Assembly: GCF_018446385.1 (NCBI RefSeq)
Contig: NC_055988.1
Span: 167,076,337-167,140,336 of the forward strand
Reading direction: 5' to 3'
From: Zingiber officinale
Lineage: Eukaryota; Streptophyta; Magnoliopsida; Zingiberales; Zingiberaceae
DNA length: 64,000 nt
Shown: piece by piece, positions 4,126 through 27,060 of the stretch
Position numbering within the stretch: position 1 is the first letter of the stretch
Layout: every line of letters starts with the position of its first letter
Made by a program: the position numbers and the translations under genes
The notes under the pieces: model-generated
What the model saw: only the letters and a program-made list of their open reading frames with translations
The model's database searches: none
What the model was told of the DNA's origin: nothing

Positions 4126-4498
4126 TGTTGGTACAGGAAGCACCAAACGATCGAACCTGTATTTTGATTATGTCAAAGGGTCCAAAGTTAAGTTCTCTTG
4201 TAATTTAACAAGGTTGATTGAGCTTGCAGGAAAAGTCCTAAGTGTACTTAGGCAAAAGTCCTAGTGGTTCTAGGCAGGTGGAAAACCCTAGGGGGTGGTA
4301 ACCCTAGGTCCTAGGGGGTGATAACCCTAGGTGATGAAAAGTTCTATCTACAGTTAGGCAGGTGAAAAACCCTAGGGGGTGGTAACTATAGGTCATAGAG
4401 GAAGGTAACCCTAGGCGGAAAGTCTTAGCGGGTCGAGTGCTTCGGGCAAAATCTTAGAGTCGAGGACTCTAGGTTGAAATTGTGGCGGTTTGGTAAAG
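4126..4498 (+). repeat. Truncated 3' LTR with hairpin-rich start
   Basis: Begins TGTTGGTACAGGAAGC directly after the polypurine tract. Bases 4229-4430 contain repeated dyads (CCTAAGTGTACTTAGG, CCTAGTGGTTCTAGG) and CCCTAGG-flanked units repeated several times. Palindrome-rich LTRs are known in Sireviruses. The expected LTR end (the 1-56 type) is absent, so the right part was lost before or by the later insertion at 4522. Confidence 0.65.
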
Positions 4499-4516
4499 AT
4501 CATGAGTTTAAAAGTA

Positions 4517-4521
4517 TATAG
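4517..4521. repeat. Target-site duplication TATAG, left copy
   Basis: TATAG directly before the LTR; the matching copy is at 18012-18016. It fixes the element ends. Confidence 0.85.
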
Positions 4522-5612
4522 TGTAGGACCGTTAGATTCGATAGAGGGGGGGTGAATATCGATTCGAAAAAGACGAGTATAAACACAGCGGAAAAATAAA
4601 ATAGACACAGTTGTTTTACTTCGTTCGGAGCCTGTGACGACTCCTACTCGAAGGCCCGTGGTCCTTGACCACTTTCGTTGGGCAATCACTAGCAATTCGA
4701 AATAATGATTACAAAAGAACCGTACAGTGAATGCTAATGAAAACTAAAAACAAAATACCGACAAGAAGGGAAAAGAATGGAGCGTAGTGTCGGAGCTTTG
4801 TTGGCGTCGCACTGAACGTTGAGCAGCAAGACCAGCAGTAGAAGAATTCTCAGCTTGATTGATTGATCCTGAAGCTCCTGTCTGGGGCTTCTTTTATATG
4901 TTGTTCCAGGCGCATGGATCCCTTCCGGGCGCCTGGAATGTGACGTAGCTGCACAAACCATGATGCTCCACGTGGCGACGACTCGGCTGGATAGAATTCG
5001 CCTTCCGGGCGCCCGGATCCCCTCCGGGCGCCCGGACCACCTTGTTCCAGAAACCTCCTTTTTCCTGCAAAACAAAGTTAGTCCGAGGCAAATGTATATC
5101 CTGTAACACAGATTGTCAGCACAGTTAAAGTTCAACAGATAAATAAAAAGAGTATGACTTAGATTCCGTCTTTCCGAGACCGGAATCTAGTCACGATCTC
5201 GACTTAGACATCCGAAATGGATCTAAGCCGGATCGACGCCTAATGTCCCCTTCCCGGGAACGCGTCCTCACAGTCACTCCCCTCCAGTGACTTACCTCAC
5301 TTACCTGCCAGACGTCCGGTCAGCCCGTCGACCCGTCTGGACTTCTCGCCAAGCGTCCGGTCAGCCCGTCGACCCGCTTGGACTTCTCGCCAGCTATCCG
5401 GTCAGCCCGTCGACCTAGCTGGACTTCTCGCCAAGCGTCCGGTCAGCCCGTCGACCCGCTTGGACTTCTCGCCAGCTATCCGGTCAGCCCGTCGACCTAG
5501 CTGGACTTCTCCTGCACACTCGATCAAAGTGTCAGACAACAACAAGACTAACTTAACCTATTTGTCATTCATCAAAACCTAGGTTAAATCGTTAGTGCTA
5601 GCCGCACCAAAA
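4522..5612 (-). repeat. 3' LTR (1091 bp) of the minus-strand element
   Basis: On the plus strand it runs from TGTAGGACCG to CCGCACCAAAA. It is nearly identical to 16935-18011, with a 14-bp extra piece near 5282-5296. A minus-strand TATA box (ATATAAAAG) lies at 4891-4899. Two CCGGGCGCCCGG palindromes sit upstream of it at 5005-5016 and 5024-5035. An array of five 41-bp hairpins occupies 5308-5504. Confidence 0.9.
5308..5504 (-). repeat. Five tandem 41-bp hairpin units, left LTR
   Basis: Units start at 5308, 5349, 5390, 5431 and 5472. Each has a 7-bp arm, an invariant 19-nt loop TCCGGTCAGCCCGTCGACC and the exact reverse complement of the arm. Arm pairs are CCAGACG/CGTCTGG, CCAAGCG/CGCTTGG, CCAGCTA/TAGCTGG, then the last two again. 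The loop itself can pair GGTC with GACC. Confidence 0.9.
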
Positions 5613-5626
5613 ATCTCCCCCTTTTT

Positions 5627-6856
5627 GATGGAATGACAACCTGGTTAAGTTAGTGAAAGCATATGCAAGAAACAACATGCATTTGTGTGGTTTTAAAGTT
5701 AGTTTGTGTTTTCAAATTGGTTTAGCTAACTTAACCACCTAACCCTCCTCCCCCTTTGGCATTCATCAAAAAAATGAACAAAGGTAAATAATCATAGTGA
5801 AGAGTTACTGTAACAGGTAATCAAATTTTGAAAGATATCTAAGTTTGGTTCAAAATTTGAAAGATAAAAGTGTAATTTTTAACACCAAGTAAAAAAATAG
5901 TCAAGTTGACTTGGGGGAGACAGGTTGAGTTTTGAAAAGGTTAATCAAGTTTAACTCTCAAGTGTGTGGAAATTTTCAAAATAGGTTTTTCAAATTTACT
6001 TTTTATGTTTAAGTAACATCTACTTTTCAAATAGGTAAATTTTTCAACTTCGATTTTTCAAAACAAAGCAAAAATTAAATATTTTTTTAAGAAATAAAAT
6101 TTTTGCCAAAATTAATTTTTAAGGCTGATTTGATAAAGGCTAAATTTGGAAATAGTTAATTTTTCAAATCAGGTTTGAAAATTGGGTGGGATTAAACTTT
6201 CACATTTTTTAAATACTTAGTTAAGTTTAAATTTTGTAAATCAATGTTCAAACATAGGTTAGGTTTTAAAAGGCATTTGTCAAACACACAAAATTTGAGT
6301 TAATTCTCCCCCTGAACTTGATATTTAACTTTAACCAGCTGTCTACCCAATTAGGTACTAACTAGCTATCAGAAGATAGTAGCTTTCACATGGTTAGTCA
6401 GATTAAGTTGATTACAAGCAGTCAGTTTTTTTTGACTTGACTGATTAACTTTAATCTGATTAATATCTGAGTTGTATTTAACGTCCAGACTTATGTTGAT
6501 GCACTGAAATAAGCATCTTAAGTCCAGACAGTTGGCCTATGCATCTCACCCCTTTCTATGTTTGTCAAACACACGCAAGGTAAACCTAGGGTGTTGGTGA
6601 GATGCTCAAAAACTAGTCCTATGGGTACATGCTTTCTAAGGATTCAAAACTAGTCTAAGGCAAAAACTGTTTTTGAAAATCTAAAAATGGAAAGTTTGAA
6701 AACAAAATAGTTTTAACTTATAAGTTGAAAAACTAGTTTTTAGAAAAATTATAGTCTACCGAGATAGAGCATAATCAATGTAGGTCTGAAATATCACTAG
6801 ATAAATCCAAAATATTTTACAAGTAGTGTAGCTACAGAAGTAGGTCATCACTAAAG
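5627..6856. other. AT-rich non-coding interior between accessory ORF and 3' LTR
   Basis: No reading frame of note on either strand. Contains scattered CAAATTTT and TTTTCAAA words and the text CTCCCCCTGAACTTG near 6307, an old polypurine-like tract on the minus strand. Nothing else was recognised. Confidence 0.4.
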
Positions 6857-8112
6857 CTACTGAGATGATGAAGGGGGTGGTCCAGATCCCAAGGATCGAA
6901 GAAGTGCCATCAGCTCAGTGTGTCGGGTGTCTCCGGCAGCTCGTAACTCGGCAACCTCTCGCCGTATGTCCCGATGAAAATCCGAGTTCTCCTGCTGGAG
7001 ACTCGCCATAGCTCTCTCTAGTCCGGTCATACAGTCGGCTAGAGTGCGGGGAGCGTGTCGTGGTGCTCGAGCTGGGGGTGGTGGTGGAGCCGGTGCGGCT
7101 TCCTCTGGAAATAGTGCGAGCATGAACTCGTCCACCTGTGCGTCTGGTGCTGTGCCCCCCTCCGCCAAGACATAGTCCCGTCATCTCTATCTATATGGAT
7201 GCCGGTTAGGGAAAAGTTCCGAGCGGCTATAACATCGAACTCGGTCATATGGGCAACGTCTCCCCTAGTGACATCAATGTGCAACGAGGACATATAGGCT
7301 GTCAGAATGTGACCAAATGGCATATGGACTCGACTGTCAGTCACAAATCCAGCTGAATAGATGATGGTGGAGAAGATATGTAGGCTGATGTCAATGTCTA
7401 ACCTATGAATCAGGGCATACAGTAAGAACGAATGGAATGGGCGCATCACAGCGATGTCCCGAGTAGTCAGTGGTAAGATGCAAAGGACTACAACCCTATA
7501 AAGAGCGTAGTCCTGGACTCGAAGTTCTACTGACCTAAACTGTGTCACAGTGGGATCTCTCTCTCCTCCGAAAAAATACGAATAAATCGTATCGAGAGTA
7601 ATATGTGAGTAGGGATCTTCGAACGGTAGATCTCTCGGAGAATAGCACAAAAAGGAGCAAGTAGATGGACGCAACTCTAAAAACTCTCGGATAGTCGTAG
7701 GGGAAAATACGATATCAGTGCCTGCTGCCCTAGTGGTATAGGTGAAATCGTCTACTTTTACTAGGTTATTGCAAAATTCGGCACACAGACTTATGTTTAT
7801 TGGACTGGTACATTCGACAAGGTTCGTTAAGTTATAGTGGCCTATAACCTCTAAAGCAGAGGGACATGACCTTAGAAAGAACGATCTATCTATGCAGGTA
7901 GTCCTAATGGCCTTATAAATGGTGGATTCAAACTTAATCCTAAGTTCGTCTGTGGGAAACCTAGGGTCTGTACTAGTATTGGAGGGTCCAGCACCAGTAT
8001 TTGTTCGTTTCCTACTGTATATAAATAAAAGAATATTCTAAGAAAAAAATTGAGAAGACAAATTCTAATAAGATTTTAGAGAGGGGAAGTATTTTATTTA
8101 ACGAGGAGCCAT
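6857..8112 (-). pseudogene. Accessory ORF, putative plant transposon protein (PF20167-like), one frameshift
   Basis: Starting from ATG 8112-8110 the minus strand reads MAPR. An apparent 87-bp intron (8015-8101) follows, then an open frame from 8014 to about 7160 (RKRTNTGAGPSN..., FCNNLVKVDDFTYTTRAAG, REFLELRP). The pattern resembles the 'putative plant transposon protein' domain found in accessory ORFs of plant LTR elements. At a run of six C (7155-7160) the frame shifts. It then continues in a second frame to a stop at 6857, with a Pro/Ala-rich linker and a C-terminal coiled-coil-like segment (LERAMASLQQENSDFHRDIR). The ancestral splice donor is mutated (TT instead of GT at 8101-8100). Its function is unknown. 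Its position downstream of gag is where some Sireviruses carry env-like genes, but I see no signal peptide or membrane anchor. Confidence 0.65.
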
Positions 8113-8252: not shown

Positions 8253-8299
8253 TTATTTATAGGGGACTCCGGGCGCCCGGATCACTTCCGGGCGCCCGG
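8253..8299 (-). promoter_or_regulatory. Probable internal promoter of the accessory ORF
   Basis: On the minus strand a TATA box (CTATAAATAA, 8262-8253) lies about 140 bp ahead of ATG 8112. Directly upstream are two perfect CCGGGCGCCCGG palindromes (8269-8280, 8288-8299) and a partial third (near 8309). The LTR has the same combination, TATA plus these palindromes. Confidence 0.55.
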
Positions 8300-8399
8300 G
8301 GTTGCTAGGGCGGGGCGCCCGGAACCCGGAGGGGAATACCAGGGGCTCCCGCCCCTGGTTTTTGACTTCTTTTTTTTTTTTTTTTTTTTTTTGAAATTA

Positions 8400-9140
8400 G
8401 GTTTGAAGTTAAGTTTTGAGTTTGAATAAAATTTTGAAATTAAGTTTAAAATTAAACTTTTGAAATTAATTTTTAAGTTTAAAATTTTGAAATAAATTTT
8501 TAAGTTTTAAAATTTTAAAATTAATTTTTAAGTTTAAAATTAAAATTTTGAAATTAATTTTTAAGTTTAAAATTTAAATTTTGAAATTAATTTTTTTTTG
8601 GTTTAAAATTAAAATTTTGAAATTAATTTTTAAGTTTAAAATTAAAATTTTGAAATTAATTTTTAAGTTTTAAAATTAAAATTTTGAAAATAATTTTTAA
8701 GTTTAAAATTAAAATTTTGAAGATAATTTTTAAGTTTAAAATTAAAATTTTGAAGATAATTTTTAAGTTTAAAATTAAAATTTTGAAAATAATTTTTAAG
8801 TTTAAAATTAAAATTTTGAAAATAATTTTTAAGTTTAAAATTAAGATTTTGAAAATAATTTTTAAGTTTAAAATTAAGATTTTGAAGATAATTTTTAAGT
8901 TTAAAATTAAAATTTTGAAAATAATTTTTAAGTTTAAAATTAGAATTTTGAAAATAATTTTTAAGTTTAAAATTAAGATTTTGAAGATAATTTTTAAGTT
9001 TAAAATTAAAATTTTGAAGATAATTTTTAAGTTTAAAATTAAAATTTTGAAAATAATTTTTAAGTTTAAAATTAAAATTTTGAAAATGATTTTTAAGTTT
9101 AAAATTAATTTAAGTTTAAAATTTTAAAATTAATTTTTAA
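8400..9140. repeat. 33-bp AT-rich minisatellite
   Basis: About 22 near-identical units of the type TTTTGAAAATAATTTTTAAG followed by TTTAAAATTAAAA. The period of 33 is divisible by three, so one frame stays open (8684-9127) as an 11-residue Ile/Lys/Phe repeat. That frame is a by-product, not a gene. A 20-base T run (about 8371-8391) precedes it. Confidence 0.9.
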
Positions 9141-9578
9141 GCCTTATTCATCTCACTCGATCTATATTATCAATCAGGGAATCCTATGATTTTGTGAGAT
9201 GAAATTGGTTTGATTACAGAGTTTTGGTTTAACTTGTGTTAGATTCAGACTTAGCTTTGGTTTCCACAAATAGGCATTCTTCGGATAAACTTCTAAGCTT
9301 GGTGAGTCACAAGGACATCATTAGAAGTAACCAACCTTTCGAGGTTTTCCGAATAGTCCTATCCACGGAACTTAGTACTAAATCTTGGTCTAACTGGTTA
9401 GGATTCGTTTAAGGGTAGCTTCGGTCAGTTCCACTTGGCCAAATGCACCAGATCGAAACCATATCTTTCTAGACATGCGATGCCCAAGTTTCCCTAACGT
9501 ACTATCATCCAAAAATTTCACCAATACCATGATTCAAGTTAAACTTGGTCTCTAATTCTAATTGCCCTGCCGGGTTTG
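9141..9578. other. Non-coding spacer between gag and the minisatellite
   Basis: No usable frame. Its sequence is shared, in inverse orientation, with the stretch after gag in the 1-4521 element (for example around 1990-2340), so it is a family feature rather than decayed pol. Confidence 0.5.
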
Positions 9579-11307
9579 TTAGTTTTGGGTTACCCTGTCG
9601 GGTAAGTTAGTTTTGGAGGTGCCACCTCCCCCTGAATTATTGGCCATTAATTTAAGTTTTGATTTTAGGCTTGTGTCGATTCTTTTATAGTTATAGTTAA
9701 CTTGGTGATAATTTTGTTGTTTTTTAAACTGTTTAGATTTTGAATTTGATTTAGGTTTGTATTTTGGATTTTGGTTTGGTTTATTTAATTTTATATAATG
9801 TATTTTTTCTTTAGGTATATAATATTGATTAAGTCCTACTTGCGTGGTTAGACACGCTTTCGGAACCCAAGCTAGATTGGTTGACTTGTATTGGGTTATT
9901 AATGATTTGAAGGTTTTATTTGAATTCGACTTATATCCTAGTCCGGTTTTATTATAACATGCTTTTTGATTATTTAGGATTAAGTCTAAATTTTTTGATC
10001 TTGTTGTGAATTTTTCTAACATCTCCTTTAAATTGTTTATTTCATTTTTAATGATAAATTCTCCTCCTCAAGTGTTAGATCTTGAGTTGGATTTGAATTT
10101 TTTAATTGTTCCTTGAGGTTTTGATTTTCCTCAAGAAGTAATTTGTTTTCATTTTCTACTTTGGTTAATTTACTATTTAAACAAGAAATGATTCTAAAAA
10201 ACTTTTTGTTTAAATTAAAATATACCTCATTCGAGCCTTCGGAAACGAGTACGGACTCGTGGCTTGTTTCAGGTTCAGACCCGTCTTCATCTTCCGACTC
10301 ATTTTCAATTTCGGCTTCGCGGGCCATCAGTGCGAGGTGGCTCTGATGTTTCTGCTCTTCTTCCTCTGATTCGTCCGAGGAGTCGTCCCACGTTGCTTTG
10401 AGTGCTTTCTTTTTTGTTGGCTTTGGTTTGTCGAACTTTAGTTTTGGGCATTCGTTCTTGTAATGTCCCTTTTTGTTGCAGCCGTAGCAAGTCACGTTCT
10501 TTTGTTCTGAGGGAGAGCTGGTCTTTTGAAGATCCTTTTTGCTGAAGCTCCTCTTTCTCCTGGTGAACATTTTTCTTACCAAGTTCATCAGGTGTTCTTC
10601 GTTTTCGGAGTCTTGGTCAGATTCTTCTTCAAATTCAGGCTTGCTTTTCTTTTCTTTGGAGGACCCTGCAAATAGAGCTATACCTTTCTCAGCTCCAGCA
10701 TTAGTTTGTTCGTGTAATTCTAATTCACAGAAAAGCTCATCTAATTTTAAGTTAGAAAGATCCTTAGAAATTTTGTAGGCATCCACTATTGATGCCCACA
10801 AACTATTACGTGGAAAGACGTTTAATGCGTACCTTATTAAGTCTCTGTTCTCCATCTGGTGGCCTATCGCATGGAGCCCGTTGAGGATGTCCTTGATCCT
10901 CGCGTGTAGTTGATTCGCCATTTCACCTTCCTGCATTTTTATATTAAAAATTTTATTTAAGAGAAGGTCTCGTTTTGTTACCTTGGCGTCGCTCGTTCCC
11001 TCGTGCAGCTCGATCAACTTGTCCCATAGCTCTTTAGCGTTTTTGTGTGGACCGACTCTGTTCAGTTCTTCTCTTGTCAATCCGCATTGTAGAGTGTTGA
11101 TCGCCTTATTTTCTGTTGATGCTTTTTTCTTGAGATCTGCTGTCCAGTCTTCAGGATCCACTAGATTCCCGGCGTTGTCCACTGAAATTTTGTAGGGTCT
11201 CGTGATGCTCATCCACTAGTCGAAGTCTGTTTTGAGGTAGACCTTCATGCGCTTCTTCCAGTAAGGGAAGTCGTCCCCGTTGAAGAGTGGAGGTCGCACT
11301 GTGCTGA

Positions 11308-16920: not shown

Positions 16921-16932
16921 GCTCTGATACCA
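16921..16932 (-). other. tRNA-iMet primer-binding site
   Basis: Minus strand TGGTATCAGAGC, a perfect match to the plant copia primer site, two bases inside the 5' LTR. Confidence 0.95.
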
Positions 16933-16934
16933 CT

Positions 16935-18011
16935 TGTAGGACCGTTAGATTCGATAGAGGGGGGGTGAATATCGATTCAAAAAAGACGAGTATAAACGCA
17001 GCGGAAAAATAAAATAGACACAGTTGTTTTACTTCGTTCGGAGCCTGTGACGACTCCTACTCGAAGGCCCGTGGTCCTTGACCACTTTCGTTGGGCAATC
17101 ACTAGCAATTCGAAATAATGATTACAAAAGAACCGTACAGTGAATGCTAATGAAAACTAAAAACAAAATACCGACAAGAAGGGAAAAGAATGGAGCGTAG
17201 TGTTGGAGCTTTGTTGGCGTCGCACTGAACGTTGAGCAGCAAGACCAGCAGTAGAAGAATTCTCAGCTTGATTGATTGATCCAGAAGCTCCTGTCTGGGG
17301 CTTCTTTTATATGCTGTTCCAGGCGCCTGGATCCCTTCCGGGCGCCTGGAATGTGACGTAGCTGCACAAACCATGATGCTCCACGTGGCGACGACTCGGC
17401 TGGATAGAATTCGCCTTCCGGGCGCCCGGATCCCCTCCGGGCGCCCGGACCACCTTGTTTCAGAAAACTCCCTTTTCCTGCAAAACAAAGTTAGTCCGAG
17501 GCAAATATGTATCCTGTAAAACAGATTGTTAGCACAGTTAAAGTTCAACAGATGGATAAAAAGAGTATGACTTAGATTCCGTCTTTCCGAGACCGGAATC
17601 TAGTCACGATCTCGACTTAGACATCCGAAATGGATCTAAGCCGGATCGACGCCTAATGTTCCCTTCCCGGGAACGCGTCCTCGCAGTCACTCCCCTCACT
17701 TACCTGCCAGACGTCCGGTCAGCCCGTCGACCCGTCTGGACTTCTCGCCAAGCGTCCGGTCAGCCCGTCGACCCGCTTGGACTTCTCGCCAGCTATCCGG
17801 TCAGCCCGTCGACCTAGCTGGACTTCTCGCCAAGCGTCCGGTCAGCCCGTCGACCCGCTTGGACTTCTCGCCAGCTATCCGGTCAGCCCGTCGACCTAGC
17901 TGGACTTCTCCTGCACACTTGATCAAAGTGTCAGACAACAACAAGACTAACTTAACCTATTTGTCATTCATCAAAATCTAGGTTAAATCGTTAGTGCTAG
18001 CCGCACCAACA
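16935..18011 (-). repeat. 5' LTR (1077 bp) of the minus-strand element
   Basis: Partner of 4522-5612. It starts (minus) TGTTGGTGCGGC and ends CGGTCCTACA. Carries the GC palindromes at 17418-17429 and 17437-17448 and the five-unit hairpin array at 17707-17903. The following 18012-18016 TATAG is the TSD. Confidence 0.9.
17707..17903 (-). repeat. Five tandem 41-bp hairpin units, right LTR
   Basis: Same order of stems as in the left LTR (CCAGACG, CCAAGCG, CCAGCTA, CCAAGCG, CCAGCTA) with the same invariant loop. No unit has a mismatch between its two arms. Confidence 0.9.
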
Positions 18012-18720
18012 TATAGGATATCTCCATTTGCATGAGACCTTTTGGGAAGAGCCCAAGAGCAAAGTCATGAGGGCCTAGGTACAAAGTGAATAATATAATG
18101 TCATTGTAGAGATATGTGAACATCCTTTAGGTACAACACGACCAATATACCAAGTACATTTCTACTACCTTTGAGCATCACTTTACTGCTTTCGAGCATC
18201 ATTATAACGGCCTAAGCGGTAAGTAAATAATGCTTTCGAGCCACTAATAACAATAAATGTGTCAAATATATTTTTATTACCTCCAGACATCAATCCATTA
18301 CCTCCAAGCATTAATTTTACTGTTTACGAGCATCATTATAAATATTTAAGTTTTTATTGTTAAACATCATATTACCAATTAATATGCTCCATATAAAAGT
18401 CTAAAAAATTTCACTCTGGTTATATTTATCTCTCATTGATTCTTTTTGGTTATGGGACATTACATGCTTAAAGGTATTGGTGTCACATATTTTATAAAGC
18501 TTTTACAAAACATAACAATTTAGTCATATTCATTCTAAATTTATAAAAGCATAAATCTATTAGTATTTATAACTCAATCAGGTAAAACAGGTATCTCCTA
18601 AATTATGTAAAGACCTTAATATTTATATTGTCAGCCAAGGCATTTTTCACAAAACACTTTCCGAGCAGTAAAAATGAATAAGCACTAGGAGTGGTATACC
18701 AATAGCGGTAGTTAATCAAG
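18012..18720. other. Flanking repeat-like sequence at the insertion site
   Basis: Joined across the insertion, ...CATGAGTTTAAAAGTATATAG + GATATCTCCATTTGCATGAG... and GCCCAAGAGCAAAGTCATGAGGG resemble text common in small plant LTR/TRIM-type repeats. Identity not established. The rest is AT-rich with repeats of TTTCGAGCATCATTATAA-like words (18180-18340). Confidence 0.35.
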
Positions 18721-26519: not shown

Positions 26520-26747
26520 TTGCCTTCTGCTTTCCCTTTGCTTCACACTCCGGTCGTAATGGCTAGTTCTTCTGCCCCCTCTCCCGGTCTTTGGTATCAA
26601 ACCATGGAGAGTAGGTTTGATTCGGGAGATACCTTCAAACTAATCAACACCTATGACATCCCCTCTGACCATAAACTCGTTTTGGCCAAGTCGTCCGACC
26701 GACCACATAAACCCATCGGCCCGAAGACCGTCGAGCGGCGACGTTAA
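26520..26747 (+). pseudogene. Antisense ORF fragment, N-terminus of a 'gypsy-type putative transposase'
   Basis: On the strand opposite to gag. ATG at 26520 or 26559 (MASSSAPSPGLWYQTMESRF), then YDIPSDHKLVLAKSSDRPHK. This resembles the start of accessory proteins annotated in plants as putative gypsy-type transposase. A TATA-like ATTTATAAGG (26278-26287) lies about 240-280 bp upstream, so it may have its own promoter. The frame runs straight into the 64-bp tandem repeats and stops at 26747, so the C-terminus is lost. Confidence 0.5.
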
Positions 26748-27060
26748 ACTCTAGAGTCGGACTGACGACTATAAACCCCCCGGCCCGAAGACCGTCGAGC
26801 GGCGACGTTAAACTCTAGATTCGGACCGGCGACTATAAACCCCCCAGCCCGAAGACCGTCGAGCGGCGACGTTAAACTCTAGAGTCGGACCGGCGACTAT
26901 AAACCCCCCGGCCCGAAGACCGTCGAGCGGTGACGTTAAACTCTAGGGTCGAAGCGGCGACCATAAATATCCCGCTCGGAAGACCGTCGATTAGCGACGT
27001 TAAATCCCAGAGTCGGACCGACGACTATAAGCCCCCGGTCCAGAATTCGTGGGGCGGCGA
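26718..27060. repeat. 64-bp tandem repeats, about five copies
   Basis: Units start at 26718, 26782, 26846, 26910 and 26974 with GGCCCGAAGACCGTCGAGCG and GACTATAAACCCC. The last copies diverge. Confidence 0.9.

Follow-up and report, generated by a model that had tools for sequence, protein, structure and literature searches.

What keeps the two arms of a short palindrome matched when their sequence differs from one repeat unit to the next and the middle between them stays the same? The question is raised by a tandem array of such units in both long terminal repeats (LTRs) of a retrotransposon in ginger (Zingiber officinale), found in a 64,000-nucleotide stretch of the genome (hereafter the window). 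An earlier note on this DNA took the matching of the arms as the covariation signature of a selected fold, in RNA or in cruciform DNA, and named a gag packaging signal among its possible roles.

Sirevirus Features of the Host Element

Judged by its sequence, the element is a high-copy copia retrotransposon of Sirevirus type on the minus strand, and the affinity to Sireviruses that the earlier note had suggested is borne out by the LTRs, the primer-site junction, the polypurine tract (PPT) and the palindromes. Its features, in coordinates of the window, are as follows.

4522..5612, minus strand: 3′ LTR, whose terminal CA (plus strand) reads AA
16935..18011, minus strand: 5′ LTR; the 5-bp target duplication TATAG stands at 4517-4521 and 18012-18016
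16921..16934, minus strand: Sirevirus-type junction AGTGG and primer site TATCAGAGC, by comparison with passages of PMC2829016
5615..5622, minus strand: PPT AGGGGGAG, with more minus-strand copies at 5748 and 6306
17305..17311, minus strand: TATA box (TATAAAA) in the 5′ LTR, separated by 7 nt from the palindromic repeat before it
4904..5036, minus strand: two pairs of promoter-proximal palindromes, TCCGGGCGCCCGGA and variants of it, located between the array and the TATA box
8254..8322, minus strand: the same palindromic repeats as in the LTR, 7 nt, then TATAAATA, upstream of the env-like frame
10037..11212, minus strand: copia gag (PF14223, E=1.6e-15), with a CCHC knuckle seen in the frame
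7039..8037, minus strand: env-like frame, with a weak match to PF20167 (E=0.055, below the cut-off)

Set against the Sirevirus description in the relevant passages of PMC2829016, the element agrees except at two points. The signature CA/A(T or G)TGG followed by TATCAGAGC is present as CA AGTGG TATCAGAGC at 16936-16921; the PPT octamer AGGGGGAG, of which Sireviruses have several copies in the linker, occurs seven times in the window, counting both strands, against 1.0 expected; and a polyC-rich signal, ATTCACCCCCCCTCTA, lies 20 nt from the LTR end (about 21 bp in Sireviruses). Palindromic CGG-CCG repeats, also a Sirevirus feature, number 11 in the window when up to two mismatches are allowed, seven of them in the two LTRs and three at 8269-8322, and the pattern of a repeat followed by a TATA box (allowed gap 3-14) gave 14 matches in 14 of the 139 array loci fetched from the genome, all with a gap of 7. 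The first point of disagreement is the attachment site after the terminal PPT, which reads AT/TT at the 3′ LTR where Sireviruses have AT/TG; the 5′ LTR retains TG. The second concerns the inverted repeat at the PPT/3′ LTR junction, which is present as in Sireviruses (24-nt arms at 5547-5570 and 5631-5654, 88% complementary) but has its arm 8 nt away from the PPT instead of bordering it.

The gag frame is without the N-terminal part present in its relatives P0001 and P0002, and its best match among named plant gag proteins is from Curcuma longa, followed by Zingiber officinale; the SIRE lineage is prevalent in Amomum, of the same family as ginger, according to a passage of PMC11066291. Two relatives of the ginger gag, P0002 and P0004 (66% and 64% identity), are filed as Salmonella enterica and are probably plant DNA in short contigs of Salmonella enterica assemblies. 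No pol-like frame was recognised by eye among 26 open reading frames of at least 70 residues, four frames having been run on Pfam; the place expected for pol (8440-9579) holds an AT-rich 33-bp tandem repeat of about 20 copies (8440-9108). With gag and the env-like frame alone, the element looks non-autonomous. A palindrome pair and TATA box precede the env-like frame (8254-8322) as they do in the LTR (17305-17349), on the minus strand and with the same 7-nt gap, and this arrangement supports a putative internal env promoter, of which there was no conclusive identification in Sireviruses according to the passage of PMC2829016 that deals with it. A second Sirevirus-like gag piece, on the plus strand and with 71% DNA identity to the element's gag, lies in the region of 555-993 and 4271-4415, where CCTAGG palindromes have arms altered one side at a time; the element may thus be nested in an older relative.

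Anatomy of the Array

Each LTR carries five 41-bp units.

5307..5511, minus strand: palindromic array of the 3′ LTR, with arm types 1-2-3-2-3 along the plus strand
17706..17910, minus strand: twin array of the 5′ LTR, identical to the first at 205/205 bp
5315..5333, minus strand: first copy of the constant 19-nt middle, with inner stem GGTC/GACC; further copies start at 5356, 5397, 5438 and 5479

Unit length and spacing, constant 19-mer and all three pairs of arms agree with the first description, the array being slightly longer than had been thought. The 19-mer has 10 exact occurrences in the window against 0 expected from 100 shuffles. Its 7-nt flanking arms are perfectly complementary and come in three pairs, CCAGACG/CGTCTGG (type 1), CCAAGCG/CGCTTGG (type 2) and CCAGCTA/TAGCTGG (type 3). 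Across the three distinct window units, standard pairs fill 33 of 33 pair cells, and sliding the partner by 1-3 columns leaves just 12-42%. The differences among the types are confined to columns 5-8 and 28-31, so that every variable column falls in an arm (P ~3e-5 under random placement). That "ten of ten" units are matched, as the earlier note put it, holds in that all of them pair, but they reduce to three distinct sequences in the order 1-2-3-2-3 in two identical arrays, and we reject the reading of ten independent units because the three types were copied into both. The 19-nt loop is invariant as claimed but is no plain loop: each unit has a 7-bp stem, a TCC bulge, the inner 4-bp stem GGTC/GACC and an 8-nt loop, and on both strands is predicted to fold into a single bulged hairpin of 11 bp, at about -16 kcal/mol.

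Outside the arrays the two LTRs differ by 19 substitutions, one 14-base gap and, judged by eye, another base at the end of the LTR. The stretch 5295-5520 shows no difference from 17694-17919, against about 2% elsewhere; by a rough estimate the chance of this is about 2%. Another GC-rich tandem array in the window, at 26693-27036, has a 64-bp unit in 5.4 copies. Read in the sense direction, the palindromic array occupies nt 102 to 306 of the LTR, leaving about 410 nt between its end and the TATA box. Because gag lies on the minus strand, the array is in U3 and the strand read in the earlier note is the antisense strand.

Folding of the Two Strands

The sense strand of 5290-5520 folds no better than its shuffles (z -0.34), and the antisense strand of the same stretch does so clearly (z -4.15); in four 82-nt windows over 5300-5504 the values were -0.98 to -1.49 for sense and -2.75 to -3.75 for antisense. 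The fold with all five hairpins lies above the predicted minimum on both strands, by 9.5 kcal/mol on the sense strand (-76.5 vs -86.0) and by 4.7 kcal/mol on the antisense strand (-80.5 vs -85.2). In the antisense model the one unit whose stem is not duplicated in the array folds into a hairpin of its own at a probability of 0.99, and the four units that have a twin do so at about 0.5; this advantage of the unique stem is absent from the sense model (0.43 vs 0.26-0.55). No Rfam match was obtained at E up to 1 in 4400-5800.

The changes in the arms allow a separate comparison of the strands, as a single arm transition gives a wobble pair on one of the strands but not on the other. Of the 111 single transitions scored, 63 were compatible with antisense pairing and 48 with sense pairing (p=0.18), and without one kind present in 18 copies the counts were 45 and 48. 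There is no strand bias, and no sign that pairing in the sense RNA is the thing kept. The genomic RNA of an LTR retrotransposon should contain U3 at its 3′ end alone. This, together with a sense strand that is no better than shuffles, argues against the gag packaging signal, which we reject.

Unit Types across the Ginger Genome

The 3.09-Gb assembly holds 41,825 copies of the exact 19-nt middle (20,812 + 21,013) and none of its reversed control; 35,300 occurrences have the form CCA-N4-middle-N4-TGG, and exact copies of types 2 and 3 number 9,283 and 12,220. For closer comparison 139 array loci were fetched, 39 from the start of contig C1 (the first 100 exact middles listed) and 100 from the first 100 places listed by a search for rare units (contigs C1-C15), the 100 units that triggered this second choice being dropped. 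Every sampled locus has at least one exact middle by selection, and units were restricted to those with at most four changes in the middle and good outer anchors, a filter under which two loci (L120 and L121) gave none and 137 yielded units. LTR sequence was found on the array's two sides in 133 and 136 of the 139 loci.

The sample comprises 584 units, 379 with 7/7 arm pairs in 11 matched types and 205 unmatched in 122 combinations. Four main matched types make up 363 units (148, 92, 73 and 50); the fourth, CCAGACA/TGTCTGG, is missing from the arrays of the window. The unmatched combination CTAAGCG/CGCTTGG, with 18 of the 584, is commoner than every matched minor type. The types have set places along the plus strand of the array, exact type 1 opening the array in 72 of 73 cases and type 4 closing it in 50 of 50. 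With units assigned to their nearest type and eight units omitted, the commonest order is 1-3-2-3-4 (43 of 137 loci), that of the window coming second with 10. Chimeric units number 3 among the 442 with a recognised type on both sides, eight one-step neighbours and the units with an unrecognised side being excluded from this count. Unequal crossing-over within the middle makes chimeric units, and recombination in an 82-bp register avoids them anyway.

Searches beyond ginger gave little. An exact 16-mer search of viral contigs returned 83 stretches (80 listed, one match each), which we set aside as probable chance matches; longer patterns had no match in viral or other genome contigs, the gag searches none in viral contigs, and a protein search with the frame through the array none at all.

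Paired and One-Sided Changes in the Arms

By the shortest path, five paired steps and no unpaired one link the four main types (one from 1 to 4, two from 1 to 2, two from 4 to 3), so that the perfect compensation of arm differences between unit types, as originally claimed, survives the genome-wide count. Four of these steps consist of two transitions and one is a double transversion, from A-T to C-G. Transitions at both of two partner columns cannot but restore a pair, and pairing there is therefore no evidence in itself; double CpG decay in symmetric arms can explain some of the paired transitions (e.g., type 1 to type 4) but not the A-T to C-G step. Between types, then, 5 changes are paired and 0 unpaired; the kinds of change within types are 7 paired and 54 single. 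Fisher's test of this contrast gives p=8.9e-5, under the reservation that the between-type row was entered by hand, that abundance decided the choice of types and that the kinds lack strict independence.

Within types the arms change much as the middle does. In the sampled units the rate of change per site is 0.044 in the arms, measured against whichever of five matched types is nearest, and 0.043 in the middle. Intact arms are found in 0.627 of units, and the frequency of exact middles predicts 0.626. Divided by age, arms and middle are not exactly parallel: arrays whose middles carry more than one change each have 0.070 changes per site in the arms and 0.102 in the middle, and those with intact middles 0.029 in the arms against 0 in the middle by definition. 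A single change is carried by 134 sampled units, in a count whose per-position rates cover units with at most two arm changes. Among units with at most three arm changes, double changes at partner columns number 17 against 8.1 expected, and those at non-partner columns 39 against 30.6, a borderline excess (p=0.06) in which 8 of the 17 are of one kind. With four reference types instead of five the counts are 30 against 9.6 and 55 against 41.3, and much of this excess consists of the matched minor type CCAAACG/CGTTTGG and its relatives. Two kinds of arm were counted by eye: among the matches listed, 1 of 100 units with a transversion in left column 5 is matched (155 in all), and 26 of 100 with the left arm CCAAACG (448 in all).

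The two LTRs of single elements bear on what happens at insertion. Thirteen pairs, chosen by distance, were compared, three of them poor (L112/113, L126/127 and L189/190). Seven pairs align with at least 95% identity along more than 540 bp, and in these every arm difference from one LTR to the other is one-sided. Of the 13 pairs, six (L093/094, L109/110, L189/190, L191/192, L212/213 and L220/221), four of which came from the search that selected mismatched units and share a trigger of the kind CCATACA or CCACGCG, have mismatched arms that are common to both LTRs. Being present in both, these one-sided arms are older than the insertion; mismatched units can therefore be copied, and one round of copying does not strictly require symmetry. 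In L103/L104, an old pair that aligns poorly (91%), a matched arm change is confined to one LTR.

Because the matched steps lie between types and decay within types is one-sided, the covariation of the arms is genuine but ancestral, present between types and hardly within them. The selected fold of the earlier note, and covariation still going on among the copies, find no support here. The two findings that the note itself had named as speaking against a fold are largely what we see: arms mutate independently, to judge from the 205 unmatched units and the scarcity of matched ones among those with a transversion, and whole-unit copying from about four types gave rise to the units.

Discussion

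Palindromic repeats are already known from Sireviruses, and it is the set of matched arm types around one core that appears to be new in the ginger array. The repeats closest to it are the RM boxes of Sireviruses, which, in the passages of PMC2829016 describing them, are likewise palindromic, of CGG-CCG type, CpG-rich and present in many copies; they lie on the upstream side of the TATA box in the LTR, and others precede the env-like gene, as in the ginger element. The ginger array differs from these in its long 41-bp tandem unit, bulged stem, split core and several matched arm types, and also in its position, as the plain palindromes lie downstream of it and it starts some 100 nt from the LTR edge rather than at 200-400. 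The palindromes of maize Sireviruses (Bousios 2016, via passages of PMC10760457 and PMC5311732) are similarly clustered, able to fold and highly variable in sequence, and are a hotspot of small RNAs in maize; their motif, CACCGGACNNNGTCCGGTG, is unlike that of ginger, and compensated arm types go unmentioned in those passages. A single core flanked by several matched pairs of arms was not described in the Sirevirus and palindrome literature that we searched, in which the maize work of 2016 is represented by papers citing it. That literature had no paper on Sirevirus together with Zingiber, and some on Zingiber with SIRE, LTR retrotransposons and Copia; the papers found on compensatory hairpins or palindromes in LTR retrotransposons include none on Sireviruses by title, and a search on covariation in tandem and inverted repeats of retrotransposon LTRs gave none. 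The novelty seen in the earlier note is accordingly narrower than it appeared, since Sirevirus LTR palindromes, their folding and their targeting by small RNAs are in print in the passages cited (PMC2829016; PMC10760457), whereas the matched arm types are undescribed there.

The matching could have arisen as a by-product of copying. A hairpin snapping back during replication or reverse transcription would let one arm template the other and give paired changes without function, and template switching of this sort has been proposed for multi-base compensatory changes in rRNA stems, which also show several paired changes around a constant loop (PMC8794818, in the part on these hairpins). Variable columns limited to four adjacent pairs, the difference of types 2 and 3 at four neighbouring pairs, the matched change in one LTR of L103/L104 and the upward lean of paired doubles are all consistent with it. 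The lean is borderline, however, and, unlike the rRNA case, ginger has no clear excess of paired changes within unit types; with mismatched arms inherited uncorrected by both LTRs of an element, we reject correction in situ as a strong force and think template switching an unlikely origin of the types. That the arms are palindromic by chance, with no cause beyond duplication, is hardly credible: copying of four types does account for most sampled units, and transitions at partner columns, as in four of the five steps, always restore a pair, but the double transversion, the confinement of variable columns to the arms and the failure of the slid controls all stand against it.

A hairpin selected as a single strand, in RNA or cDNA, with fixed bulge and loop and serving, for example, as a substrate for small-RNA production or for an element protein, is similarly doubtful. 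The bulged hairpin of each unit and the better-than-shuffled antisense strand point in its direction, as does the excess of small RNAs at palindrome clusters of maize Sireviruses (PMC10760457, in the passage concerned); the unexceptional sense strand, the five-hairpin folds lying above the minimum on both strands, the lack of strand asymmetry among G-U-compatible changes and the failure to match Rfam over the region searched point away from it.

We somewhat favour the view that the array makes up the distal, palindromic portion of a control region in U3, acting in cis at the level of DNA through its dyad symmetry, with types that are ancestral. This preference comes from the position in U3, the CpG-rich palindromic neighbourhood, the likeness of the middle to Sirevirus boxes and the absence of strand bias; the middle carries half-sites of published Sirevirus repeats (CGGTCAGACCG, CGGTCTGACCG and CGGTCGACCG), split by a longer spacer. 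Regulation by the array would be putative and would operate mainly through double-stranded DNA, as CpG-rich dyad-symmetric boxes. Under DNA-level regulation, an early array would have diverged into four types, each unit keeping its dyad symmetry, and the family would then have spread with the types copied as whole units, so that matched arms today would be an inheritance from that early stage and inserted copies would decay one side at a time. The weak point is that a protein site explains the fixed middle but not the matched and variable arms, which points towards a fold. A bolder, and in our estimate rather improbable, model is that the units are orthogonal hairpins with a constant core and differing stems at fixed places, which would avoid mispairing and form a multivalent platform on a single strand (cDNA or RNA).

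A conspicuous covariation in one window thus shrinks, on counting the genome, to four old types followed by copying and one-sided decay. With arms matched between types and mismatched within them, the ginger family offers tens of thousands of copies in which to ask whether DNA symmetry, a fold or template switching lies behind the matching.
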